Source: a virus
DNA length: 24,426 nt
IMG/VR virus record: IMGVR_UViG_3300021961_000612
Location: 1-24,426 of that record
Direction: 5' to 3' (one strand)
The notes under the pieces were generated by a model. The model saw only the letters and a program-made list of their open reading frames with translations, was not told the DNA's origin and ran no database searches. A program made the position numbers and the translations under genes. This document shows positions 2,210-18,422 of this stretch, in pieces (positions within the stretch are counted from its first letter, which is position 1; every line of letters starts with the position of its first letter).

Positions 2210-3484
2210 TTAAGGAGCGGCTGGAGCCTCGTTAAGAGTTACCTCAACGAACGACTCTGGGCGCTTAACAGCAAGAGCAATGCGCTCTTCGGCCAAAACG
2301 GCTACTGCGTTTCGTACGAAGAAATCACTGTGCTGCTCAGCAACACGGATTGTGCCTTCCATGCGGTCGTACAGTGTTGCACCAACGCCGAAGGAGCCAA
2401 TCAAGACTTTGCCTTCAGTGATTGCTGGTGTGCTGACGATTGGCAAGCGCCACAAACGTGCTTCTGCACCGATTGATACCGACATAACCATGATGTGACG
2501 GTTCTGTTCATCCTTGGTCAGTTCGATGTCTTCCATGTCGTTCGGGTGCATAATGATGCCTGTTGGCTCATAGTATGCAAGGAGCGACTTGGTGATACCG
2601 CGACGGATTGCGTCGATGCGGCTGTCACCAACTGCGCCTGCCGACCAGTTGAGGGTTTGGACGCCCGATACGTTACGGATACCGGTCAGGTTTGAGCCCG
2701 AGCCGTTACCGTTAAGAATCTGGTCATCTTCCGTCAAGCGAAGGCCGTAAAGCAATTCGTTGTCGATGATTCCACGCAATGTTGGCTCGTCTTCGAGAAC
2801 GTTGCGGTGAGCAACTTCGAAGTGAGCAATTGTGCGTACTGGAGCCTGTACACCAACAACAGTCATTGACGACTGTGGCTTTGATGTAAATACTTCTGGT
2901 GTGCCTGAGCGCTCAGAAACAGTAGCAGCATTGTTTGTAAAACCGCTTACACGGAAGTACTCAATCATGTTGCTATTTGTTTGCTGTACGTTGAACAAGT
3001 CACGTACTCGCGAAACGCGCTTTGCGCGGTCTACGATGCCTTCGCGTTGCGGTGTACCGAAATCACCAGGAGTACCTGATGGCAATGCGGTGAACACGTC
3101 CTTGGCTTGGAATGGAGCCTGCATGGTGTAACCATTGCGGCCATTGCCAATTGCCTTGAACTCATCTGAATCGATGAAGCGCTGACCAATTGACTTGCGT
3201 GAGTCACTGGACGAGAAGTCAACTTTGCTGGTCTGTGCTGGAGCTACTGAACCAGTTGCCCAACTCTTGACTTCGCTAAGTCCTTCAAGTGCTTCGATTT
3301 CTGCGCGAATCTCTCGTGCTTTCGCAAGATTCGAGCGGAATGCTTCTACGTGCTTTACTTCTGCTTGAACTTCTGAAGCACCCTCTTCGCGATTGCTCTC
3401 GACGTGCATGACAATTGAGTCATTCTCGGCGATTACGTTCTTGAGGGCACCTTTAAGTTCCTTCAATCGGCTGTCATAAGCCAT
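2210..3484 (-). CDS. Major capsid protein, HK97 fold
   Basis: The protein has 424 residues. Residues 1 to about 90 are a charged, helical delta-domain-like segment (ELKGALKNVIAENDS..., then EVKHVEAFRSNLAKAREIRAEIEALEG) of the type that acts as a built-in scaffold and is cut off by the prohead protease. The remainder carries HK97-fold features: a GTPGDFGTPQREGIVDRAK stretch before the N-arm, a long E-loop-like region, 'LLYGLRLTEDDQILNGNGSG' for the spine helix, TGIIMHPNDMEDIELTKDEQ, and the end 'LIGSFGVGATLYDRMEGTIRVAEQHSDFFVRNAVAVLAEERIALAV' (given here only as motif order). It starts at ATG 3484 with AAGGAG eight bases upstream (3493-3498). Its own promoter (3552-3580) and terminator (2150-2186) bracket it, consistent with the very high expression a capsid protein needs. 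Confidence 0.93.
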   Translation of the reverse strand: MAYDSRLKELKGALKNVIAENDSIVMHVESNREEGASEVQAEVKHVEAFRSNLAKAREIRAEIEALEGLSEVKSWATGSVAPAQTSKVDFSSSDSRKSIGQRFIDSDEFKAIGNGRNGYTMQAPFQAKDVFTALPSGTPGDFGTPQREGIVDRAKRVSRVRDLFNVQQTNSNMIEYFRVSGFTNNAATVSERSGTPEVFTSKPQSSMTVVGVQAPVRTIAHFEVAHRNVLEDEPTLRGIIDNELLYGLRLTEDDQILNGNGSGSNLTGIRNVSGVQTLNWSAGAVGDSRIDAIRRGITKSLLAYYEPTGIIMHPNDMEDIELTKDEQNRHIMVMSVSIGAEARLWRLPIVSTPAITEGKVLIGSFGVGATLYDRMEGTIRVAEQHSDFFVRNAVAVLAEERIALAVKRPESFVEVTLNEAPAAP

Positions 3485-3910: not shown

Positions 3911-5068
3911 CTATTCGTCAGCTGAGAATAGTTCGCCGCGGAAAATAGTTTCACCGTTAAAGATAGGGACCATCTCAAGCTGGAACTTGCTATTGCCTTC
4001 CTTGTAGGTTACGACAGCCATGCCTTGTTGCCAGTTCTCCGTTGCATTTATCGGTCTACCAAACGAGTCGGTCGACCCCTTAACGGAAGGAACAGCACCA
4101 TCGGTCCTGCATAAACAGCCAGGCGATGCCGCAAACCATGTTTTTGCACCATCAAAAGTTCTGCGGGTGATGTAGGTCTGTTCAATTCTATGAATATGAC
4201 CATGGATAATTGAGATTCTTTCAGAGTCAACTACTGCCTTAGTAGTTGAACCGTTAGACCTAACTTTGTCACCGTGTACGCAGGCCAAGTTTTCATTTAG
4301 GTAAAAAATGCCGGCCGGATATCCGTCAACATACTCAACATCAATACTGTCAAGACGCAATAAAAACGGCACGCTCATTACAGGCCATTCTTCTGGAGCT
4401 TCGGCTCTCTTCAAATGTAAAGCGGCAGCAGCATTTTTCAGAATTGATTTCTGGATACGCCTATCATGATTGCCCTCAAGTAAAACTATTTTGGCGTCTG
4501 GAGCGTTAGCCCTTTGTTCACAAAGAAATTTATAACCTCTATCAATTGAGGCTTGGGTTGTCCTTGCGAACATTGGCTCTTGCTCAAATCTTCCAAATTC
4601 TGGAAAATCCAAGAAGTCGCCCAAATTAACAACCACGTCAGGGTTTAAATATCTAACCAACTTAAGCGCAAGGTTCATTGCCTTTTCGTCGTGAAATGGG
4701 TCTAGCGTCCCATCTTCATACAGACGAAAACCGATTTGTGGGTCTGGCAAAATTACTGCAGTTTTAAATTCAGTCTTGACACTTTTTGTTTTGGGAAAAG
4801 ATTTGATGTTGATTGGCTGTGCTTGCTGTACAACAGGCCAAGCCGGTCCTTCATGCCACTTTGGGTGAATTGCTATCGACATTCCACCTAGGTCATGAAT
4901 CTGGGCGGTACCATCTTCATCTTTTGTCAAACCTTGCCACTCAGAAATTTTGACTTTACTTACTGAGCCAATGTCGTCGATTGGAATTCCAGAACGCTCT
5001 AATAGTTCTGTAATTTTGTTTAACTTTGATTTTTGTATCTCGGAATTTAAATCTTCTTTAAGGCTCAC
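3911..5068 (-). CDS. Calcineurin-like metallophosphoesterase
   Basis: This 385-residue protein uses a GTG start at 5068 with GGGGGAG close upstream; the upstream gene's stop lies inside that spacer. From about residue 100 it has the ordered metal-binding motifs of calcineurin-like phosphoesterases: ILPDPQIG (D109, with Gln where His is more usual), VNLGDFLD (D151), LLEGNHDRR (N200, H201, D202), CVHGD (H265) and IIHGHIHR (H291, H293). These residues coordinate two metal ions and hydrolyse phosphodiester or phosphomonoester bonds. The substrate is unknown; nucleic acid or nucleotide is likely in a phage. The N-terminal 27 residues (MSLKEDLNSE..., ...ITELLERSG) resemble those of the small protein encoded just upstream. 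It is embedded in the head operon, an odd place for an enzyme. Confidence 0.88.
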   Translation of the reverse strand: MSLKEDLNSEIQKSKLNKITELLERSGIPIDDIGSVSKVKISEWQGLTKDEDGTAQIHDLGGMSIAIHPKWHEGPAWPVVQQAQPINIKSFPKTKSVKTEFKTAVILPDPQIGFRLYEDGTLDPFHDEKAMNLALKLVRYLNPDVVVNLGDFLDFPEFGRFEQEPMFARTTQASIDRGYKFLCEQRANAPDAKIVLLEGNHDRRIQKSILKNAAAALHLKRAEAPEEWPVMSVPFLLRLDSIDVEYVDGYPAGIFYLNENLACVHGDKVRSNGSTTKAVVDSERISIIHGHIHRIEQTYITRRTFDGAKTWFAASPGCLCRTDGAVPSVKGSTDSFGRPINATENWQQGMAVVTYKEGNSKFQLEMVPIFNGETIFRGELFSADE

Positions 5069-5371: not shown

Positions 5372-5779
5372 CTATTGTGCGATTTCTTTGAGGAGCTGAT
5401 GGAATTCTTTTAGCTCCGAGTATGAAATCGAGAAATTCTCAACAGCTGGAGCAGCAACTTCTTCTGTGGTTTCAACTGCTTCAACCGCTTCTTCTGCTTT
5501 GACCTCAGCCTCAACAACAGCTTCAGCAACTTGCTCTTCAGCTGCAACGACTTCCTCAGCTGCAACGACTTCCTCAGCTGCAACTTCTGCAACTGGCGCT
5601 TCTTTTACGTCTTCCACAAGTTCATCTGTTGATGCTTTAACATCAATGACTTCTTCCGTTGCAGCAACTTCGGCTTCAACTACTTCCTGGGATGGACTCA
5701 ATTGCTTCAAGGCCTCGCTGAGTTGCTTGGCAACAAGTTCACTAATTTTTGCTTCAAGTTCAGCGCTAATTGTATCCAT
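5372..5779 (-). CDS. Probable separately translated scaffold from an internal in-frame start
   Basis: Inside the preceding gene, in the same frame, ATG 5779 (MDTISAELEAKISELVAK) is preceded at six bases by AGGAG (5790-5786), extending to GAGGAG. That is a better ribosome site than the one for the full-length protein. The product would be 135 residues: an N-terminal coiled-coil helix, the VAAEE repeat region, and the C-terminal helix ending in KEIAQ. It would be a free scaffold made in excess of the long form. Nested in-frame scaffolds are established for lambda (Nu3 within gene C). That it is used here is inference from the ribosome site and domain boundary. Confidence 0.5.
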   Translation of the reverse strand: MDTISAELEAKISELVAKQLSEALKQLSPSQEVVEAEVAATEEVIDVKASTDELVEDVKEAPVAEVAAEEVVAAEEVVAAEEQVAEAVVEAEVKAEEAVEAVETTEEVAAPAVENFSISYSELKEFHQLLKEIAQ

Positions 5780-6538
5780 CGAATTCTCCTCGTCTTGAGT
5801 CACATTATTATAGTCTGCTTTTTCTTCCTGTGCAGCTAAGCTATAGTCCGATTGGATATCGCCGGTAGCCGAAATTTCAGCATAGCCCAAAAGAATGAGC
5901 TCATCTAATTTATTGTCCTCATTATCCAGGAGTTCAATAAGGGCGTCATCATCATTTGCCTCAACAACTAGACCTTTATAAAGGGTCCCACTGTCTTCCC
6001 ATTCAACCTTAACCCCAATGTCAATAAGGCTTTTGCGGCTAAAATAGCTATTTTCGTGGCTCATACTTACCTCGTTGATGGGTTCGGTTATTAATCCCTT
6101 ATATAACATTAGCGCATCCACGTCCTCATCTGATTTAAGTTCCGGAGTTGGCATATCTGCATCGGCATAATGGGCGGCTAAGTGCCTATAAACGCCTTCG
6201 CGGGCAGCACCCCTAAGAACTGTCCCAGACCGACCACCGTTCAAAACAGCTATGGCTGAGGACAAAGCCCTGAACGAAGCCGCCCCAGGCTTGCCATCAG
6301 AATCAACAAAATGATGAATAAAGCTGTAGTGGGTCTTTCTGTCGCCATCAGTGTTTGGCGTTTGATAAGTAAAAATGTCGTCGTAATACGAAATCGAGGA
6401 AGGCGATGTGATGTTCTTGTATTGGGCTGTTCTGTCCCAAGGAGAATCCATGTTGATTTCGGTCTTGTGGGTTGAGACAGCCCGACCATTTGGGCCAGAT
6501 TTTTTTAATTCAAGATTATCTGTTGTCTCTTTTTCCAT
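5372..6538 (-). CDS. Capsid assembly protein: duplicated protease-tail domain fused to Glu/Ala/Val-rich scaffold
   Basis: This 388-residue protein starts at ATG 6538, one base after the TAA of the prohead protease gene (TAATATG); a TTG at 6547 is possible but less likely. Residues about 45-135 (IFTYQTPNTDGDRKTHY, FIHHFV, VLNGGRSGT, GVYRHLAAHY, LKSD) repeat the C-terminal domain of the protease gene. A middle part (about 150-240) contains acidic strands (VEWEDSGTLYKGLVVEANDD). The last 135 residues are extremely rich in Glu, Ala and Val, with tandem VAAEE units, and end in a helix (YSELKEFHQLLKEIAQ) like that of scaffolding proteins, whose C-terminal helix binds capsid subunits. Position between protease and capsid genes is where a scaffold is expected. 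See the separate internal-start entry. Confidence 0.75.
   Translation of the reverse strand: MEKETTDNLELKKSGPNGRAVSTHKTEINMDSPWDRTAQYKNITSPSSISYYDDIFTYQTPNTDGDRKTHYSFIHHFVDSDGKPGAASFRALSSAIAVLNGGRSGTVLRGAAREGVYRHLAAHYADADMPTPELKSDEDVDALMLYKGLITEPINEVSMSHENSYFSRKSLIDIGVKVEWEDSGTLYKGLVVEANDDDALIELLDNEDNKLDELILLGYAEISATGDIQSDYSLAAQEEKADYNNVTQDEENSMDTISAELEAKISELVAKQLSEALKQLSPSQEVVEAEVAATEEVIDVKASTDELVEDVKEAPVAEVAAEEVVAAEEVVAAEEQVAEAVVEAEVKAEEAVEAVETTEEVAAPAVENFSISYSELKEFHQLLKEIAQ
5541..5585. repeat. 18-bp tandem repeat in the scaffold coding region
   Basis: The unit GCTGCAACGACTTCCTCA occurs at 5541-5558 and 5559-5576, followed by a partial third copy. It encodes the tandem VVAAEE/EVVAAEE residues. 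Being in multiples of three it can change copy number without breaking the frame. Confidence 0.85.
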
Positions 6539-6539
6539 A

Positions 6540-8813
6540 TTAAGCAATTTCTTTCGTCAATGGAGTTTTGATAATACCATTTTTAATCATCAAATTATCC
6601 ACATATGAATCCGACTTTAGTGTCGGTGGCTTAGTACCAAAATCTCTGTAGTGGCGAGCCAGGTGTCTGTACACAGCTTTTCTATCTTCACCGCGTAAAG
6701 TTGTGCCGGTTCTTCCGCCGTTTAACACGGACATTTGAACTCTAAGTTCAGACATGGCTGCAGCTCCTGCGCGCCCATCTTTTGATACGAAATGATGAAT
6801 GAACGTGTAATGAGTCTTTCGGTCGCCTTCTGTATTTGGATATTGATAGGCAAAAATCTTGCTGTAGTAATCTTTGTCTGCTGGTGAACGAACAGAAAGA
6901 ATCGCTTGACGATTTAGATTTTCTGAATCCGAAACAGCCGATGAATGACTTGGAATTGGTCCGCCGCTTGCCTTGACTTCATTATCTTTTTTGTCAAGCT
7001 CTTTTACGGTTGCTGATTTTTCAGATATGAGTTCTTCTTTGATAATCCAAAGTTTGCAAATTGCTTCTGGTTCAATTTCACCATCAACAATTTCGCAACG
7101 CTTTCCACCCTGGAAGAAAGCGCAGTTCATACACATCAGACCTTTTTCCTTGAATGGGTTTGTTTCCGCAGATGCGTAATGCGCTCCATCAGGGCCAGCG
7201 GTCTGGTCCCACTTACCAAACTCTTCAGCCATTGTTTCAAATAGGTCGTACATGGTGAACTGACGAGGAGTTAAGCCACTCTCTTCTTGCTCTGCGATTC
7301 CCTCAATCATCTCATCTTGATGAGGCACTAAATCCTCTTGTTTGCTGCCTTGTGTCTCTGCTGCATAAAGAGCTGCCATATGACTGCGAGCCTCAGCGAG
7401 GGTTTGATGGCACCCACCAGGAACTGGTGTGCTTTCGCCCTCTTTAATAACTGCGTATCCGCTACACCCATTGGCGTTGCTTGAAATACGGTATGGCTTA
7501 CCTTCATCTGTTCGGCGGCGGCGGCGTGGTTGACGACCAACAACACCCGGACGTTCTGGTGTCCCAAACGAACCAGGATTGCCTTCGGGCATGTCGGTGT
7601 AAATATCTTTCTTGAGGCCGTCCTCTTCTTCGTCTTCATCTTCGTCACTCATATCCGGCTTGTCAATCAGTCTGAGAGTAGAAAATCTATGACCTACCAA
7701 AACGTCTGTTCGAGAAAACGACATTCCCTCATTACGATAAATACGAATTAGCGCGGCTGGATTTTCTGGCGTGCCAGTGATTTCGAAATCACTATCCGGA
7801 ACATTGATAACTCCGTTGCGCACAATGCGTTCGATTTTGCCGGTCGCTCTGCCTCCCGAAGAATTCCAAGAAACAAAATCCCCAACCTCTAACTCATCTG
7901 GTTCTGCCTTGCTTTCATCTCTGCTGTTCATCGCATCAACAAGCTTCTGGGACCAGCGTCGTCCTTCATCTCCACCCCATAGTTTCCAAGCTATAAGCCC
8001 AGCTCCTGGATAGCCATCAGCTCCAGGTCTACTATTTGCCGGTGTGCGAAGGTCTACTTCGTGGCGCGGGAAATAACGTGCGATATGACGTGCTTTTTCC
8101 GGGGAAACAGTTGCGTTATTAATTAAATAATTGGCTGTGTTCTTCCCTACTGATGTACCGCCGCGATTAAATTCTTTAGACCAGTCAAGTCCAATTTGTG
8201 CTTGCTTCTTGACACCTGATGGTATTTTGAAATTAATATCTGAGTAACGCCCAACCTTGCCCTCTGAAACTATTGTTTCTTCATTATTTTCAATTTCTTC
8301 AGCGTCATCTTTCACGCTAAGAGTTCTTGTGTTTGGTGCAGCACCAAAAAGAACAGGAGAGTACTCGTAAAGTTCTAGTGTTTTGATGTAGCGAATTCCG
8401 CTTTTTTCATCAACTCTTGATTTGCCCTCTGGAACAGAATACCCGATTGACCATTCTTGCTCTTCAGCAAAGAATTGAACGTCATTGAAAGCGTCCCTAC
8501 CGCGACTTGTATTTAGATTGAATTGCATTTTTACCAAAAGGGCACCTGCATTTTTTTGACGCAAATCTTCGGGGAGCCTTGGGTCATTTGGCATCAATTC
8601 TTCGACCTTAAGAGTCTTAGCAACAGGGATATTTGTATCGTGCGACCAAACGCCTTTTGGGTTTCTCTTCCGTAACGTATTTTTATATGCGCCCGGCTCA
8701 ATGATGTCATTAACTGAGTCAACAATATTGGTCACGGAAACGATTGCTTCAACAACCCCGTCAACACTGTCAACATTTCTAATTTCCGAAACTGATACGT
8801 TTTTATGTTCCAC
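6540..8813 (-). CDS. HK97-type prohead protease with long multi-domain C-terminal extension
   Basis: At 757 residues this is about four times the usual protease. It starts at GTG 8813 with GAGGT upstream. Residues 1-170 are the protease: VSVTNIVDSVNDIIEPGAY, GVWSHD (H58), EEQEWSIGYSVPEG (S122) and LELYEYSPVLFGAAPNT are classic family motifs. It matures the capsid by cutting the capsid delta domain and scaffold. Then follow: a region with AGLIAWKLWGGDEGRRWSQ (about 190-300), a Tudor-like barrel beginning LEVGDFVSWNSSGGRATGKI (about 300-370), an acidic DEDEDEEED linker, a segment CSGYAVIKEGE...GGCHQTLAEAR, a four-Cys patch (MCMNCAFFQGGKRC, later ICKLW) likely to bind a metal or cluster, and a terminal domain (NTEGDRKTHY, FIHHFV, VYRHLARHY) duplicated in the next gene. 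The tail domains occur in other actinophage proteases; their role is unknown. Confidence 0.88.
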   Translation of the reverse strand: MEHKNVSVSEIRNVDSVDGVVEAIVSVTNIVDSVNDIIEPGAYKNTLRKRNPKGVWSHDTNIPVAKTLKVEELMPNDPRLPEDLRQKNAGALLVKMQFNLNTSRGRDAFNDVQFFAEEQEWSIGYSVPEGKSRVDEKSGIRYIKTLELYEYSPVLFGAAPNTRTLSVKDDAEEIENNEETIVSEGKVGRYSDINFKIPSGVKKQAQIGLDWSKEFNRGGTSVGKNTANYLINNATVSPEKARHIARYFPRHEVDLRTPANSRPGADGYPGAGLIAWKLWGGDEGRRWSQKLVDAMNSRDESKAEPDELEVGDFVSWNSSGGRATGKIERIVRNGVINVPDSDFEITGTPENPAALIRIYRNEGMSFSRTDVLVGHRFSTLRLIDKPDMSDEDEDEEEDGLKKDIYTDMPEGNPGSFGTPERPGVVGRQPRRRRRTDEGKPYRISSNANGCSGYAVIKEGESTPVPGGCHQTLAEARSHMAALYAAETQGSKQEDLVPHQDEMIEGIAEQEESGLTPRQFTMYDLFETMAEEFGKWDQTAGPDGAHYASAETNPFKEKGLMCMNCAFFQGGKRCEIVDGEIEPEAICKLWIIKEELISEKSATVKELDKKDNEVKASGGPIPSHSSAVSDSENLNRQAILSVRSPADKDYYSKIFAYQYPNTEGDRKTHYTFIHHFVSKDGRAGAAAMSELRVQMSVLNGGRTGTTLRGEDRKAVYRHLARHYRDFGTKPPTLKSDSYVDNLMIKNGIIKTPLTKEIA

Positions 8814-8891: not shown

Positions 8892-11045
8892 TTAGATAAA
8901 CGAAAGAGTGCATCGGCAGTTAATTACCGATGTGCTGTCGTTTTCAAAATCTCCAGGGAAGCTAACGCTTTTACCGTTTACATCAAAAACTTCGTCAATA
9001 CCAACGGTTGAGTTAGCAACAACTTGATGCTCCTCCCTGCCGTGTTCCTCGTCTAAATGTACCCATGTTTTTTTGGTAAAGCCCAACTGCTTGGCTGCCC
9101 AAAGCAAACCAGCGTTAAAAGCCCCGCCGACTTCTGTCTTGACTATTAATTTCATTCTTTTAGTAAATGAAGCCGACATCCATTCATCGATTGAATTCAC
9201 AAACGATTGATGGGGCTTGCCTTTGTGGTCATCAATAATCTTTTGAATGTTTTTGGCTGTTGTTTGATTTACAACCAAAATATGATTTGCACGATTTTCA
9301 ATCAAATCCGTAATTTGTTTTTCGCCTAAATCGAGCTTGTCAATTGATTGCCCGGCAATTTCAATTGCGCCATCAAGGAATGTTGCAGAAATCCATGTTT
9401 TTGCATCCGCCTTCAATTGCGCATCCCAAATTTTGATATCCAAAACATCATCTACTGATACCGCTTCGCCCGATTCCCACTTCTCTTTCATTTTCTTAGA
9501 CGAGCTCTTTTCGTGAGTCACCCTTTGTTGGCGTTTAAAAAATGAACCAATCTGCAAAGTAACACTTGCTTCTAAACGCTCCAATTGTCTCGCTCGCCTA
9601 TTGATTCCAGAATCCTCAACCTTTACACTTTCGATTTCGTGTGAAAGCGGAGTTAGGGCTGGGGAATAAACGGCACGCGGGCTTGGGTCGTTGCTGTCTG
9701 TCGAAACTCGCCCTTGAGTCGGAGTGTTAACGCCATTTGGGGCGCTCGGTACAGTTGGGTCCTCTTGTCCATTTGGCCTCTGGCCCGGTCTTTGATTTGG
9801 GTTCAGCAATCCTGCACCGTCACCCGACATCATCACTGGTGAAAGATTTGTTGGGATTAGCAGCTCGTCAATACCAACGGCCTCACGACCTGTCAGGTTT
9901 CTATATTCATCAATACTGATAGCACCCTGCTTGAGTTCCTCTAAGTGGAACTTTGAGCGCTCTCTGTCGTCGCGACTAAGAATCGCCACAGAGGACAAGT
10001 CGAAGGCGAAGTATGTGCTTGGGTCTGTATCTAAAACATCAAACGCTCTTTCTAGGAGCGTCAGGTGCGGCCGCATAGTTTCTCGCCAAAAAACCTCAAG
10101 CTCAACATCAGCATTGGCAAATGTCCTGTTTGCAGCATTGCCCAAAACCGATTCTGGTACACCAAAAGCTAAAAGGATTTCTTCTTTATTATCTTTTCTA
10201 GCTTCCGAATATTGAGAATCCCTTTGATTTGTGGCTGTATCAATAAAATCAGCATCTTCGGCCGAAATAACAGTCATTCGTCCTGCACCGCCAATGTTTG
10301 AACCAGTTGAGCCCTTAAAGCGGCGAGCTATTTCTTCTGATTGCTCGTCCTCTAACTCGCCTTTGATAACAAGCAAACCACCTGGTCGCGCATCGTTAAT
10401 AATGAAGTTACGGTTAAAAACTCTTGCGTAGTAGTCGTACTCAATTGCTAAACCAGCCGATTCAAGTGGGGTCTGGCCTTTGTATGGGTCAATTGGATGT
10501 GGGACCCTAATCCAAATCATACTTTGTGGGTCAATAACTTTCTTTGGTTGATTTGGGTATTCAATTGAATAGCCCGAAACAAAAGTCTTCATGTCCGGAA
10601 TTGGAAAGACATATTGCGGCTGATGTAGATAAAGACCAGTTGTATCTCCAAGTCTGTTTCTCAAAATCTCTACATACGCGCCTTTGCGCGAAAGCAGTAT
10701 CTGAGAAGAAAGCATAAATCTAAAAGTAAAGGCATCTTGATTTTCATTTGCCTTACGATTCAGAACTTCAAGAATTGGATTGTCCCACTTGAATTCTCCA
10801 GTTCTCCAATCGCCAACACGCATTCCGACTGGCAGACTTGCAGAGTTTGACGCTATTGCGTAAACGGCTTTGTAAACCCAAACAACCCTGTCAAGAGCTT
10901 GACTAATGCCTCGCTCAACATCCCAGCCATCTTTGTATGGAGTATTGGGTCTGCTGTACCCAGAAGGCTGGTAGTAGTTTTTCTTTTCCGACACGTTGGA
11001 AAAGCCATTTTGGGTGTGGGTGGTAAAAGACCTAAGGAATGGCAT
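8892..11045 (-). CDS. Portal protein fused to a MuF-like minor capsid domain
   Basis: The protein has 717 residues, starting at ATG 11045. Residues about 45-400 are an HK97-type portal: VVWVYKAVYAIASNSASLP, a 'LLSRKGAYVEILRNRLG' strand pair, SMIWIRVPHPIDPYKGQTPL, ESAGLAIEYDYYARVFNRNF, NDARPGGLLVIKGELEDEQ, then EEILLAFGVPESVLG. Portals form the 12-mer ring at the packaging vertex. A Pro/Gly/Asn-rich linker (about 430-490) leads to a MuF-like end (about 560-717): RMKLIVKTEVGGAFNAGLLW, GFTKKTWVHLDEEHGREEHQ and the closing VINCRCTLSFI. MuF proteins are minor head proteins near the portal. Portal-MuF fusions are known in actinophages. It is the first large gene of the head operon after the terminator at 11327-11379. 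Confidence 0.9.
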   Translation of the reverse strand: MPFLRSFTTHTQNGFSNVSEKKNYYQPSGYSRPNTPYKDGWDVERGISQALDRVVWVYKAVYAIASNSASLPVGMRVGDWRTGEFKWDNPILEVLNRKANENQDAFTFRFMLSSQILLSRKGAYVEILRNRLGDTTGLYLHQPQYVFPIPDMKTFVSGYSIEYPNQPKKVIDPQSMIWIRVPHPIDPYKGQTPLESAGLAIEYDYYARVFNRNFIINDARPGGLLVIKGELEDEQSEEIARRFKGSTGSNIGGAGRMTVISAEDADFIDTATNQRDSQYSEARKDNKEEILLAFGVPESVLGNAANRTFANADVELEVFWRETMRPHLTLLERAFDVLDTDPSTYFAFDLSSVAILSRDDRERSKFHLEELKQGAISIDEYRNLTGREAVGIDELLIPTNLSPVMMSGDGAGLLNPNQRPGQRPNGQEDPTVPSAPNGVNTPTQGRVSTDSNDPSPRAVYSPALTPLSHEIESVKVEDSGINRRARQLERLEASVTLQIGSFFKRQQRVTHEKSSSKKMKEKWESGEAVSVDDVLDIKIWDAQLKADAKTWISATFLDGAIEIAGQSIDKLDLGEKQITDLIENRANHILVVNQTTAKNIQKIIDDHKGKPHQSFVNSIDEWMSASFTKRMKLIVKTEVGGAFNAGLLWAAKQLGFTKKTWVHLDEEHGREEHQVVANSTVGIDEVFDVNGKSVSFPGDFENDSTSVINCRCTLSFI

Positions 11046-14410: not shown

Positions 14411-16360
14411 CTACCTCTTCATCGGCTTTATTGGAACATATTTGTACCAAACTAATTTGCCTTTAATTCTCTTACAGACGAAATTGACTTTATTTGTTCT
14501 TTTACGCAAACCAATCTTCTTGCAAGACCGCAATGGTTTGGTCGGTTTAACTGGTGAGGAAGAAACGCCCAGGGGTGTAGAAAGTATTGGAACCGAGGGC
14601 GCAACTGTAATCAGCGGTTGGATAGTTGTGGTTGTGGTGGGCATAGCAACTGTTGTGGTCGTTGTAGTAGTTGTTGGCTCACTACTCCCGCCACCTCCGC
14701 CGCCGCCACCGCCACCACCACCGCCACCGCCGCCGGTGCTAGTTCCGCCACCAATTGGTTTTGGGATTGTCGTAGTACTGGTGGTTGTGGTCGTAGTAGG
14801 GATGGTTGTAGTGCTTGTGGTTGTAGTCGTTGTCGCAGGAATCGTGGTTGTGGTCGCCGGAACAGTAGTTGTAGTTGTACTCGTCGTACTGGTCGTCGTT
14901 GGGGCCAAAGTGGTTGTTGTAGAAGTCGTCGTTGGGGCAATAGTTGTCGTTGGGGCAACTGTCGTTGTGGTGACTTCTGGGACCGTAGTCGTAGTTGTTG
15001 GAGCGATGGTTGTCGTTGGTGCAACAGTGGTGGTGGTTGTCGTTTCAGAATTTTGTGTTAGCGGGATTGTTGTGGTGGTGGATGTAGTAGAAGTAGAAGT
15101 AGAAGTAGTAGTCGTAGTGGTCGTGGTAGTCGTTGTAGTTGACGATGCTGGACCAGACGAACCATTAAAAAGCTGTATGTTTGGCGAACCTGTTTCTACC
15201 GCATTTATAACTCCAGATGTCGCCATGTCAAGTATTGACTGAGCAATAACAGAATGGCTTGCCGAAGGATTTGTTTCTAGTAATAAAGCAGCAACACCAG
15301 CAACATGTGGCGACGCCATTGAAGTCCCACTAGAACTTCTAACTGCATTACTTGCTCCGACCCACGCTGATTCAATTGATGAGCCAGGAGCAAAAATATC
15401 TAGGCATGAACCAAAATTAGAAAATCCAGACTTTTCATTTGCGCTGGTTATTGAGCCAACCGTAAGCACAAGCGGCTCGGAGGCTGGAGAGTAATTACAA
15501 GCGTTAGCGTTTGCATTACCAGCAGCAACAACAACTGTTATGCCATCTTCTATTGCGCTTCTAACCGCATCGTTAAGACTTGTTGAGGATGTAACGACCA
15601 AACTCAAATTCATTACGGCTGGTGTCCCCGAAGAATGATTTGCTATCACCCAGTTGATTCCACTGATAACACCCGAGACACTTCCAGACCCTCTGCAATT
15701 CAGGACTCTTACTGGAGTAATCGTCACATCTTTGGCTACTCCATATTTTGTCCCACCCAAAGTTGCAGACACATGACTTCCGTGCCCATTGCAGTCTTCG
15801 GTCCCGTATGTATCAGCAACAATGTTGTAGCCATCATTGATTCTGCCCGAGTATTCTTCGTGCCCTGAATTTATTCCAGTGTCAACCACGTATGCAGTAA
15901 CACCATTACCCGTTGTGTCGTAGGAATAAATCCCATCTCGGGTCAAACTGCGTTGGTCTATTCTGTCAAGATTCCACAATGTGAAAGCTCCAGAACTATC
16001 AAGAAGAGATTGTTCGCCAGCCAAAAATACTTCTTCGTCTTCTTCTACATATTTGACCTGCTCGTCTTCTTGCAATTTTTCAACATCCGAAGCTGTGAGC
16101 TCTGCCACAAATCCATTGGTGGCCAAATTGAATACTCGTAAAACGTTCATGCCGGTTTTTTGTAAATCTAAAACAAACTCTTGGACAAGCACGTCATCTT
16201 CAAGAGTGACGATGTAAGTCTTAACCTCTGACAAATCTGTGGATAACTTTGCTGAAAAATTTGAACTTTGTCCCAGGTCGTATGCTAAAGTTTTTTCACC
16301 TACAGAAGGCAGGGCGAGGGCAAAAACCAAAAAAATAAACTTAATAGGTTTTGTATTCAT
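14411..16360 (-). CDS. Secreted S8 subtilase (proteinase-K-like) with Thr-rich stalk, poly-Gly and basic C-terminus
   Basis: The protein has 649 residues. It has a signal peptide (KPIKFIFLVFALALP, cut near residue 26), an I9 inhibitor-type propeptide (about 46-112, KTYIVTLEDD...FVAELTASDVEKL), then the catalytic domain (about 125-400) with D160 (AYVVDTGIN), H193 (DCNGHGSHVSATLGG), oxyanion N282 (AAGNANANACNYSPA) and S347 (SGTSMASPHVAG). All four are intact, so an active secreted protease is expected. Residues about 405-555 are almost wholly Thr with Ser, Val, Ala, Pro, followed by some 16 consecutive Gly, more Thr, and a basic end (SCKKIGLRKRT, VCKRIKGKLVWYKY) like the short Cys/Lys C-terminal modules of actinobacterial surface proteins. 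ATG 16360 has GGAG upstream and a TATAAT-type promoter. This looks like a host gene captured by the phage; it is the first gene of the operon leading into DNA-metabolism genes. Confidence 0.93.
   Translation of the reverse strand: MNTKPIKFIFLVFALALPSVGEKTLAYDLGQSSNFSAKLSTDLSEVKTYIVTLEDDVLVQEFVLDLQKTGMNVLRVFNLATNGFVAELTASDVEKLQEDEQVKYVEEDEEVFLAGEQSLLDSSGAFTLWNLDRIDQRSLTRDGIYSYDTTGNGVTAYVVDTGINSGHEEYSGRINDGYNIVADTYGTEDCNGHGSHVSATLGGTKYGVAKDVTITPVRVLNCRGSGSVSGVISGINWVIANHSSGTPAVMNLSLVVTSSTSLNDAVRSAIEDGITVVVAAGNANANACNYSPASEPLVLTVGSITSANEKSGFSNFGSCLDIFAPGSSIESAWVGASNAVRSSSGTSMASPHVAGVAALLLETNPSASHSVIAQSILDMATSGVINAVETGSPNIQLFNGSSGPASSTTTTTTTTTTTTSTSTSTTSTTTTIPLTQNSETTTTTTVAPTTTIAPTTTTTVPEVTTTTVAPTTTIAPTTTSTTTTLAPTTTSTTSTTTTTVPATTTTIPATTTTTTSTTTIPTTTTTTSTTTIPKPIGGGTSTGGGGGGGGGGGGGGGGSSEPTTTTTTTTVAMPTTTTTIQPLITVAPSVPILSTPLGVSSSPVKPTKPLRSCKKIGLRKRTNKVNFVCKRIKGKLVWYKYVPIKPMKR
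14680..15145. repeat. Low-complexity tract encoding Thr-rich stalk and poly-Gly of the subtilase
   Basis: About 450 bases of near-repetitive sequence: on the plus strand gt-rich triplets (gtcgtagtggttgt-type) complementing ACN Thr codons, and a ccgccgccaccgcc run at about 14690-14735 complementing Gly codons. Repeated peptide units are VAPTTT, IAPTTT and TTSTTTT. Codons within the Thr run vary (ACA, ACC, ACT, ACG), so the protein repeat is maintained although the DNA is not a simple microsatellite. It produces long but meaningless antisense frames. Confidence 0.85.
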
Positions 16361-16496: not shown

Positions 16497-18422
16497 ATGA
16501 CACTATTAGACCAATCCTTCGTCGATTCTTACGCAAACAAGAAGGCCCCTTGGGGTTTTAATGGCCTGGGCGAAATTGTGTTCTTGCGCACCTACAGCCG
16601 TAAAAAAGAAAACAACGAAAATGAAACTTGGGTCGAAACCCTCCAGCGAGTAATCAATGGCGCGCACGAAATAGGTGTTGAGTACACAAAAGAAGAAGTT
16701 GAAAAACTTTTTGACCACTGCTTTAACCTTCGATGCTCGTTCTCGGGTAGGGCAATGTGGCAACTCGGGACACCGCTTGTCAAGAAGTTTGGAGCGTCAT
16801 CTCTCAACAACTGCTACTTCACCAACATTGAAAAAATTGAAGACTTTGAACTGCTTTTTGAATACTTAATGCTTGGTGGTGGAGTTGGGTTTTCGGTTGA
16901 GCGCTCTAAAATCCATGACTTGCCCAAGGTTCGAAGTGGCGTAGTTGTTACTCATGAAAAAACCAATGATGCCGATTTAATTGTTGCCGACTCCCGACAG
17001 GGCTGGAACAGACTACTTCACGCAGTACTTAAGTCTTACTTTTATACCGGCAAATCATTTAGTTACTCAACTGTTTTAGTCCGTGAGTATGGTGCAGCTT
17101 TGAAAACTTTTGGTGGTACAGCATCCGGACCGGGAGCGTTAATTGATGGCATCAAAGACATTTGCGAAGTTATGGATAATCGGGTCGGCAAAAAACTTCG
17201 CTCGGTGGATGTATTGGATATTTGCAACATCATAGGACGAATTGTTGTTTCTGGTTCTTCGCGAAGAAGTGCTCAAATTGCAATGGGCGACCCAGATGAC
17301 GTTCTCTTCTTGCGAGCAAAGAACTGGTCTTCAGGTAATGTCCCTGCATGGCGAGCCAATTCAAATAACAGTATTTACGCTGACTCGTTTGAAGAAATCC
17401 AACAAGAGCTTTGGAGAGGTTATGACGGCTCTGGCGAACCATACGGTCTATTGAACCGCAGACTCGCTAGGAAAGTGGGACGCCTCGGCGAAACCAAAGT
17501 TGATAACTCGATTGAGGGCTTTAACCCATGCGCTGAAATTGCTTTGGCCGATGGTGAGTCCTGCAATTTGTCAACAATCTTTTTGCCGAACGTGGAGTCA
17601 CTGGAGCAAATGAAGGAAATCTCATACTTGCTTTATAAGACTCAAAAGCAAATCACTCGCATGAATTATTCATACCAAAAGACAACAGACATAGTCAGCA
17701 AAAATTCCAGAATCGGTCAATCCATAACTGGAATCCTGCAGAGCTCGCCAGAACAAATTGAGTGGCTCGATGATGCCTATAAGTACCTAGAAAATCTTGA
17801 TACTGAATATTCAAAAGCTAAAAACTGGCCGAAGTCAGTAAGACTTACAACTGTTCAACCATCAGGGACTCTTTCACTACTGCCTGGAGTCACCCCTGGG
17901 GTACACCCAGCTTTTGCCCCTTACTATGTGCGACGTGTTCGGTTTGGTTCTTCAGACCCGCTAGTTGAAGCGTGTAGGAAGCGTGGCTATAAAACTCAGT
18001 GGGATATTGGTCTTGACGGACGAGAAGACCACACGAGATTAGTGGTCGACTTCCCATGTAAATCGCCAGAAGGTTCGACTCTCGCCAAGGACATGACCGC
18101 CGTACAGCAACTTGAATGGGTCAAGAAGATGCAAACTGTCTGGGCAGATAATGCCGTATCGGTGACCGTGTACTACCGCAAGGAAGAGCTTGACTCAATC
18201 AAGGAATGGCTGTCGAAGAATTATGACAAGAGCGTCAAGTCAGTTTCTTTCTTGTTGCACGCGGAGCACAACTTCGTCTTGCCCCCATACGAGGAAATAA
18301 CCAAGGAAGAATACGAAAAGATGGCTTCAAAAATTGACCAGTCCATCCCGTTGATTCAAAAATCTTTTGAGGGTGAAATCCTTATGGATGATTGCGCTAC
18401 TGGGGCTTGTCCAATTAAATAA
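16497..18422 (+). CDS. nrdJ: Adenosylcobalamin-dependent class II ribonucleoside-triphosphate reductase, monomeric type
   Basis: The protein has 641 residues. It reduces ribonucleotides to deoxyribonucleotides for phage DNA synthesis, using coenzyme B12 to form the thiyl radical. Visible key residues: C106 (SLNNCYFTN) and C356 (DGESCNLS), the redox pair; C345 within FNPCAEIAL, with N343 and E347 forming the radical site; and a C-terminal CATGACPIK (C633, C638), the mobile pair that is re-reduced by thioredoxin. Other family motifs are LMLGGGVGFSVERS and PSGTLSLLPGVTPGVHPAFA. The order matches the Lactobacillus leichmannii-type monomeric enzyme; it is somewhat shorter. AAAGG precedes ATG 16497. 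It is on the opposite strand to its neighbours, between the lysis and DNA-metabolism blocks, suggesting insertion as a separate unit. The host presumably provides B12. Confidence 0.95.
   Translation: MTLLDQSFVDSYANKKAPWGFNGLGEIVFLRTYSRKKENNENETWVETLQRVINGAHEIGVEYTKEEVEKLFDHCFNLRCSFSGRAMWQLGTPLVKKFGASSLNNCYFTNIEKIEDFELLFEYLMLGGGVGFSVERSKIHDLPKVRSGVVVTHEKTNDADLIVADSRQGWNRLLHAVLKSYFYTGKSFSYSTVLVREYGAALKTFGGTASGPGALIDGIKDICEVMDNRVGKKLRSVDVLDICNIIGRIVVSGSSRRSAQIAMGDPDDVLFLRAKNWSSGNVPAWRANSNNSIYADSFEEIQQELWRGYDGSGEPYGLLNRRLARKVGRLGETKVDNSIEGFNPCAEIALADGESCNLSTIFLPNVESLEQMKEISYLLYKTQKQITRMNYSYQKTTDIVSKNSRIGQSITGILQSSPEQIEWLDDAYKYLENLDTEYSKAKNWPKSVRLTTVQPSGTLSLLPGVTPGVHPAFAPYYVRRVRFGSSDPLVEACRKRGYKTQWDIGLDGREDHTRLVVDFPCKSPEGSTLAKDMTAVQQLEWVKKMQTVWADNAVSVTVYYRKEELDSIKEWLSKNYDKSVKSVSFLLHAEHNFVLPPYEEITKEEYEKMASKIDQSIPLIQKSFEGEILMDDCATGACPIK

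Follow-up and report, generated by a model that had tools for sequence, protein, structure and literature searches.

Why would a phage prohead protease and the product of the gene directly downstream carry the same domain? The locus that raises this question lies in a 24,426-base virus record from IMG/VR, analysed at full length and called the window below. A megablast search with the whole window gave no match, and the lineage to which it belongs consists of uncultured viruses of bacteria. We refer to the shared domain as DOM, to the copy at the protease C-terminus as copy A, and to the copy near the start of the second gene as copy B. What we find is a real, old and uncatalogued domain pair in a familiar setting, with the following features.

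8892..11045, minus strand: portal protein with a Mu-F-like C-terminus (Pfam Phage_portal, E 2.3e-50)
6540..8813, minus strand: prohead protease gene, 757 aa, multi-domain (Peptidase_S78, PHROG 80)
8262..8813, minus strand: S78 protease domain region, residues 1-184 (Pfam match at residues 13-174)
7899..8261, minus strand: helical module of the protease, residues 185-305 (PHROG 2859 match at residues 186-300)
7743..7883, minus strand: Hva1_TUDOR domain of the protease, residues 311-357 (Pfam PF11160, 28.7 bits, cut-off 24.1)
7047..7136, minus strand: four-cysteine module of the protease, residues about 560-589 (from sequence only)
6561..6974, minus strand: DOM copy A, the protease C-terminal domain (BLASTP, tree, family alignment)
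5372..6538, minus strand: second gene (tail or scaffold-like protein), 388 aa from the ATG at 6538
6080..6496, minus strand: DOM copy B, in the second gene (homology to A; AlphaFold2 model, pLDDT 96.9, pTM 0.89)
5882..6025, minus strand: SH3-like stretch after copy B (sequence and family alignment only)
5438..5872, minus strand: Glu/Ala/Val-rich acidic tail of the second gene (59% E+A+V)
5375..5431, minus strand: C-terminal motif SISYSELKEFHQLLKEIAQ of the second gene, common to all second genes and to the fused L074-type proteases
2210..3484, minus strand: major capsid protein, HK97-type (about 137 residues precede the HK97 fold; PDB 3qpr)

The protease gene sits between the portal and major capsid protein genes. 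Its product matches Pfam Peptidase_S78 (E 5.3e-12; 46.6 bits against a cut-off of 21) and the PHROG 80 head maturation protease (E 7.7e-32), and from the S78 match we predict it to be an HK97-type prohead protease. It scored 48.9 bits against the NCBIfam equivalog TIGR01543, below the cut-off of 59, and is thus a divergent S78 member rather than an equivalog. The helical module is also found in head proteins of other phages, with tblastn matches in Roseobacter, Vibrio and DSL-LC01 phages. The protease and second-gene ORFs are both on the minus strand, with the coordinates that the preliminary description gave. The second ORF was listed as 5372-6547 (391 aa from a TTG); a start at the ATG at 6538, one base past the protease TAA, appears likelier.

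The shared domain

Copies A and B aligned by BLASTP with 67 identities over 138 positions (49%; E 2e-40). The optimal local score was 348 and the maximum from 300 shuffles was 72, ruling out chance similarity. The preliminary description had stated that the protease C-terminus recurs near the start of the next protein and that the copies are adjacent and in the same orientation, and both statements were confirmed: the two genes are on one strand, one base apart. It had also put the identity at well over half, which holds for a 96-residue core (60%) but not for the whole domain, where about half of the residues are identical. DOM is about 139 residues long (protease residues about 618-756) and begins upstream of the IFAYQ stretch, at a SHxT/THKT motif, making it longer than described before. 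No third copy was found in the 24,426-base record.

Searches of Pfam, PHROGs, NCBIfam and PDB sequences with DOM returned only noise; matches to Pfam Tox-HNH-HHH were weak (best E 0.015) and were set aside. An AlphaFold2 model built from 64 homologues (pLDDT 96.9, pTM 0.89) likewise found nothing above noise in the PDB (Foldseek best E 1.4, VIA-align best Z 3.0). This absence assigns no function by fold and does not amount to proof of a new fold. Among predicted viral structures, the model matched three unnamed proteins at E 3e-5 or better and, weakly, the prohead protease of Halobacterium phage ChaoS9 (E 0.098).

Scans of viral contigs and of genome contigs yielded 116 and four DOM-encoding stretches, respectively. 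Because 31 of the 33 DOM proteins outside the window's lineage match the PHROG 80 head maturation protease, DOM is a widespread, general accessory domain of phage prohead proteases. By its confident AlphaFold2 model, it is also a folded module. Few cultured carriers exist (Thermus phage Riverbug, Streptomyces phages Xkcd426 and Mischief19, Moorella phage MTATph1). A tblastn search of cultured phages with the window's DOM gave no match at 1e-3, and a search with an outside copy found four. Methanocaldococcus virus MFTV1 is a further carrier, weak in BLAST and clear in a profile search (E 4e-20). Depending on the phage, DOM lies N-terminal or C-terminal to the protease, and the domain order and content around it vary widely, with the TUDOR domain and a ferritin-like insert also gained and lost. 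In Riverbug, DOM lies at the border with the C-terminal part and splits a Mu-like protease profile there, between positions 140 and 155. This widespread phage head domain is absent from Pfam, PHROGs and NCBIfam; a solved relative was found neither through sequence nor through Foldseek, and its histidines are strictly conserved.

To describe this conservation we numbered residues by alignment A3. Across 24 A copies, 23 B copies and 32 outside copies, H10, K54, H62, G87, R89, G91, H105 and H109 are invariant, and H61 is replaced by N in four copies. A and B copies alike carry all of the invariant residues, which indicates that neither is decaying. In the stand-alone DOM protein of MTATph1, the HH and HxxxH histidines have all been replaced while the profile match is retained. 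Together, the invariant residues and the MTATph1 losses point to a functional site of some kind, and the histidines suggest a role beyond docking.

Age and arrangement of the two copies

The origin of the pair was considered in a tree of 94 DOM copies, in which deep forks are poorly resolved by the short alignment. All protease-terminal copies (A) form one clade (99/91) that includes the L074-type copies, and the B copies of clades I and II (defined below) form a separate clade (94/82). Across these two clades, A-A identity is 71% and B-B identity 63%, compared with 37-57% between A and B within one genome. Orthologues from different clades thus resemble each other more than the two copies in one genome do, which dates the pair to before the lineage spread; A and B are old paralogues shared across related phages.

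This tree is most simply explained by a duplication in an ancestor within the lineage. Alternatively, B could have been recruited independently from the protease accessory domain of another phage rather than copied from A. The deepest B copies, those on the second genes of L069, L071 and L072, are placed outside both A and the remaining B copies (99/92), and they are about equally near to outside copies (43%) and to clade I B copies (45.5%), as such a recruitment would have it. However, a single clade of all B copies is compatible with the data (p-AU 0.367), and the forks at issue are the deep ones that the alignment resolves poorly; we regard independent recruitment as unlikely. The recent, local duplication of the protease C-terminus proposed in the preliminary description is extremely improbable despite the adjacency of the copies on one strand, in genes one base apart, because a clade holding only A and B of the window's lineage was rejected (log-likelihood 70 lower, p-AU 0.0056) and the orthologues are the closer relatives. 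That description had held that separate, deeply diverged clades shared with unrelated phages would speak against local duplication; the copies do fall in separate clades, which are shared with related phages.

ARRANGEMENTS. How the copies are placed on genes was compared along a backbone tree (portal, protease core and capsid protein, midpoint root). L074, L077 and L078 fall outside, followed by group III (L018, L069, L071, L072), clade II (L017, L044, L048, L055, L060, L064 and others) and clade I, which holds the window. In L074, L077 and L078, the protease, DOM, the acidic tail and the C-terminal motif share a single gene. In group III and clade I, the protease with A is on one gene and B with the tail on the next, except that in L068 and L070 of clade I the tail gene lacks B and is otherwise intact. 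Clade II has a protease-B-A gene followed by a tail gene without DOM, and L008 has protease-B-A plus a tail gene with B at a different position. The preliminary description had asked whether other phages have one or two copies: counted over the scanned whole records, which are incomplete genomes, DOM is present twice per record in the lineage, three times in the record of L008, and once in each of ten scanned outside records.

Because group III and clade I share the protease-A and B-tail layout, the simplest reading is that it was the ancestral layout of all three groups and that B was copied onto the protease in clade II. A is the last domain of every protease in the lineage. B, by comparison of these layouts, is mobile, standing on the second gene, beside A on the protease, on both, or being lost. 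In relatives, a TUDOR-like domain is also common to the protease and the tail gene (BLASTP E 2e-8 to 3e-5); the second gene of L014 scored 22.1 bits against Hva1_TUDOR (PF11160), below the cut-off of 24.1. In the cultured phages with the nearest proteases by sequence, GMA6 and Cantare, the protease gene also encodes an acidic tail but no DOM.

The second gene and the scaffold question

Copy B is followed by a Glu/Ala/Val-rich region, as had been described (59% E+A+V over ORF residues 226-370). The motif [DE]L[KR][EDQ]F..L[IVL] occurs in the last 45 residues of 61 of the 16,453 ORFs from all loci, and all 61 are second genes of the lineage or L074-type fused proteases. What defines the second gene is its acidic tail and C-terminal motif rather than DOM, for both persist without DOM in L068, L070, L017 and L064. 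The proposal that a protease appendage had become a capsid-assembly protein finds no support on this point, nor on another, because in L074, L077 and L078 the tail and motif are part of the protease itself. Nor is this a scaffold read in frame inside the protease gene, the second gene being a separate ORF one base downstream.

As a scaffold, the role that the preliminary description gave it, the second-gene product is only putative. The major capsid protein shows homology to HK97 gp5 (PDB 3qpr; E 1.6e-49, residues 138-418) and has about 137 residues ahead of the homologous region, so that it is HK97-like with a putative N-terminal arm of delta size. HK97 has no separate scaffold, and its delta domain does the scaffolding (PMC8508860); an HK97-type capsid protein with its own arm would make a separate scaffold unnecessary. 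The position, acidity and conserved C-terminal motif of the second gene would suit a scaffold or prohead-core protein. We consider it as likely that the product is a protease-loading tail as that it is a scaffold or prohead-core protein.

Possible roles of the two copies

How proteases enter the prohead is only partly understood. Given the fused form in L074, L077 and L078, the window looks like a protease and its tail as two genes with one DOM each. Our preferred explanation, which we hold tentatively, is that the copies help the two proteins to co-assemble. The one-gene form would have come first, and each half would have retained a DOM when the gene split. Entry of the tail protein into the growing prohead would depend on its acidic tail and C-terminal motif, which may bind the capsid protein or its delta-like arm. 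The protease would enter with it, helped by DOM-A and DOM-B through A-B contact or through a partner common to both, and would cleave the tail and the capsid arm at a later stage.

Several observations favor co-assembly: the A/B homology (E 2e-40) with orthologous copies throughout the lineage; the single ORF for protease, DOM, acidic tail and motif in L074, L077 and L078; the restriction of the motif to second genes and fused proteases (61 of 16,453 ORFs); the Riverbug DOM at the border between protease and C-terminal part, together with the protease-family membership of 31 of 33 outside carriers; and the TUDOR-like domain common to protease and tail gene in relatives. If both chains meet in the prohead, B would be expected on the tail gene, beside A on the protease, or on both as in L008, and its moves between the chains fit a co-localisation that the shared domain may bring about. 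Against co-assembly, each of the ten scanned outside records has one copy only, and the tail genes without DOM in clade II, L068 and L070 imply that some phages do without a DOM-DOM link from one chain to the other. Against the fused-to-split order, the L074-type copies fall inside the A clade, although an A+B clade that excludes them is compatible with the data (p-AU 0.129). An AlphaFold2 model of the natural tandem B-A protein, made in search of an A-B contact from only nine similar sequences, reached a pLDDT of 46.6.

The main rival to co-assembly, and a real possibility, is that DOM has a catalytic, metal-binding or ligand-binding site inside the prohead, with the protease and tail as mere carriers, either of which could deliver it, and the tail copy raising the dose. 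Such a histidine-rich site may explain why H10, K54, H62, R89, H105 and H109 are invariant in all three sets of copies, why the stand-alone MTATph1 copy lost its HH and HxxxH histidines together, and why most carriers have only one copy. However, DOM matches no enzyme in fold or sequence, and the invariance is also compatible with a structural metal site or an interface.

A stricter form of co-assembly seems doubtful to us. Here the two paralogues would form a docking pair of a new kind, in which A on the catalytic chain binds B on the tail chain through the conserved His/Arg-rich site and so loads the protease into the prohead. If true, the pair would replace the covalent or nested link of other phages, and the transfer of B to the protease in one sub-lineage would have made the pairing internal.

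It is also conceivable, but rather improbable, that DOM is a shuffling head-module domain whose two copies here have no pairing and no joint function. The wide variation in domain order and content, the N- or C-terminal position of DOM in different phages and the similar coming and going of the TUDOR domain and ferritin-like insert are what shuffling would produce, but A and B have both retained every invariant residue throughout the lineage, deep branches included, and every lineage protease has kept A as its last domain.

Under co-assembly, the duplicated domain would give two separate genes the link that P2, lambda and herpesviruses obtain from a covalent or nested protease-scaffold. In lambda, the protease, Nu3 and the portal form one initiator complex (PMC3224144), and in both lambda and P2 one gene encodes protease and scaffold (PMC8508860). 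As with lambda gpC/Nu3 and P2 gpO, the protease and scaffold-like part in the window share sequence and are encoded between portal and capsid genes, but here the genes are separate, neither is nested, and the shared part is a duplicated folded domain present on both. Herpesvirus UL26 and UL26.5 also share sequence between protease and scaffold, and the C-terminus of the scaffold, which ends in a short motif, binds the capsid protein (PMC12474303); those genes overlap and their shared sequence is identical, whereas the window has diverged paralogues (about 50% identity). HK97 gp4/gp5 has the same S78 protease family and an HK97-type capsid protein with an N-terminal arm of similar size, and it lacks the separate scaffold, whereas the window has an extra tail protein and DOM. 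Riverbug has DOM between the protease and a C-terminal part, but its Mu-like protease belongs to another family, with a single gene and a single DOM. Closest to the window, L074, L077 and L078 have the same portal, protease, capsid and phosphoesterase order, the same C-terminal motif and a DOM, and differ in encoding the protease, the tail and a single DOM within one gene. In the lineage, one system exists in several natural forms: fused, split with a DOM on each part, with both copies on one part, with three copies, or with a copy lost. This variety makes co-assembly testable through comparison and simple pull-downs.

Domain insertions in the tail gene of relatives

In L060, a relative of the window from clade II, the gene encoding the acidic tail and conserved C-terminal motif (the tail gene) lacks the DOM domain and has acquired a different one.

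L060:4229-5662, tail gene with a ferritin-like domain (Pfam PF00210)

The ferritin-like domain occupies residues 254-390 (PF00210, E 1.6e-12) and is an insertion upstream of the C-terminal motif. In a second relative, L008, copy B of DOM lies at about the same position in the tail gene. The site looks as if it were a slot for domain insertion.

Stand-alone DOM and further protease modules

L117:3953-4330, DOM-only gene, 125 aa (Moorella phage MTATph1)
Window 7047-7508, minus strand, GCSGYAVIKEG...GGCHQTLAEARSHM module and four-cysteine module, within the protease
L124:4559-7009, predicted protease-capsid fusion protein (Roseobacter phage CRP-811)

The conserved HH and HxxxH histidines are gone from the MTATph1 protein, whose gene has DNA-metabolism genes as neighbours. 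Look-alikes of the two window protease modules were found in the DOM protein of L075 (1528 aa) and in DSL-LC01 head proteins. The predicted CRP-811 fusion carries at its N-terminus the helical module and TUDOR-like stretch that are also present in the window protease.

Other genes in the window

3911-5068, minus strand, metallophosphoesterase (PHROG 20266, E 2.2e-89)
14411-16360, minus strand, subtilisin-like protease with I9 propeptide (Pfam, E 5.5e-36)
16497-18422, plus strand, B12-dependent ribonucleotide reductase-like gene

Both in the window and in relatives, the metallophosphoesterase gene separates the tail gene from the capsid gene. The subtilisin-like protease gene sits amid phage genes, with terminase on one side and portal on the other, and the reductase-like gene is on the strand opposite to the head genes.
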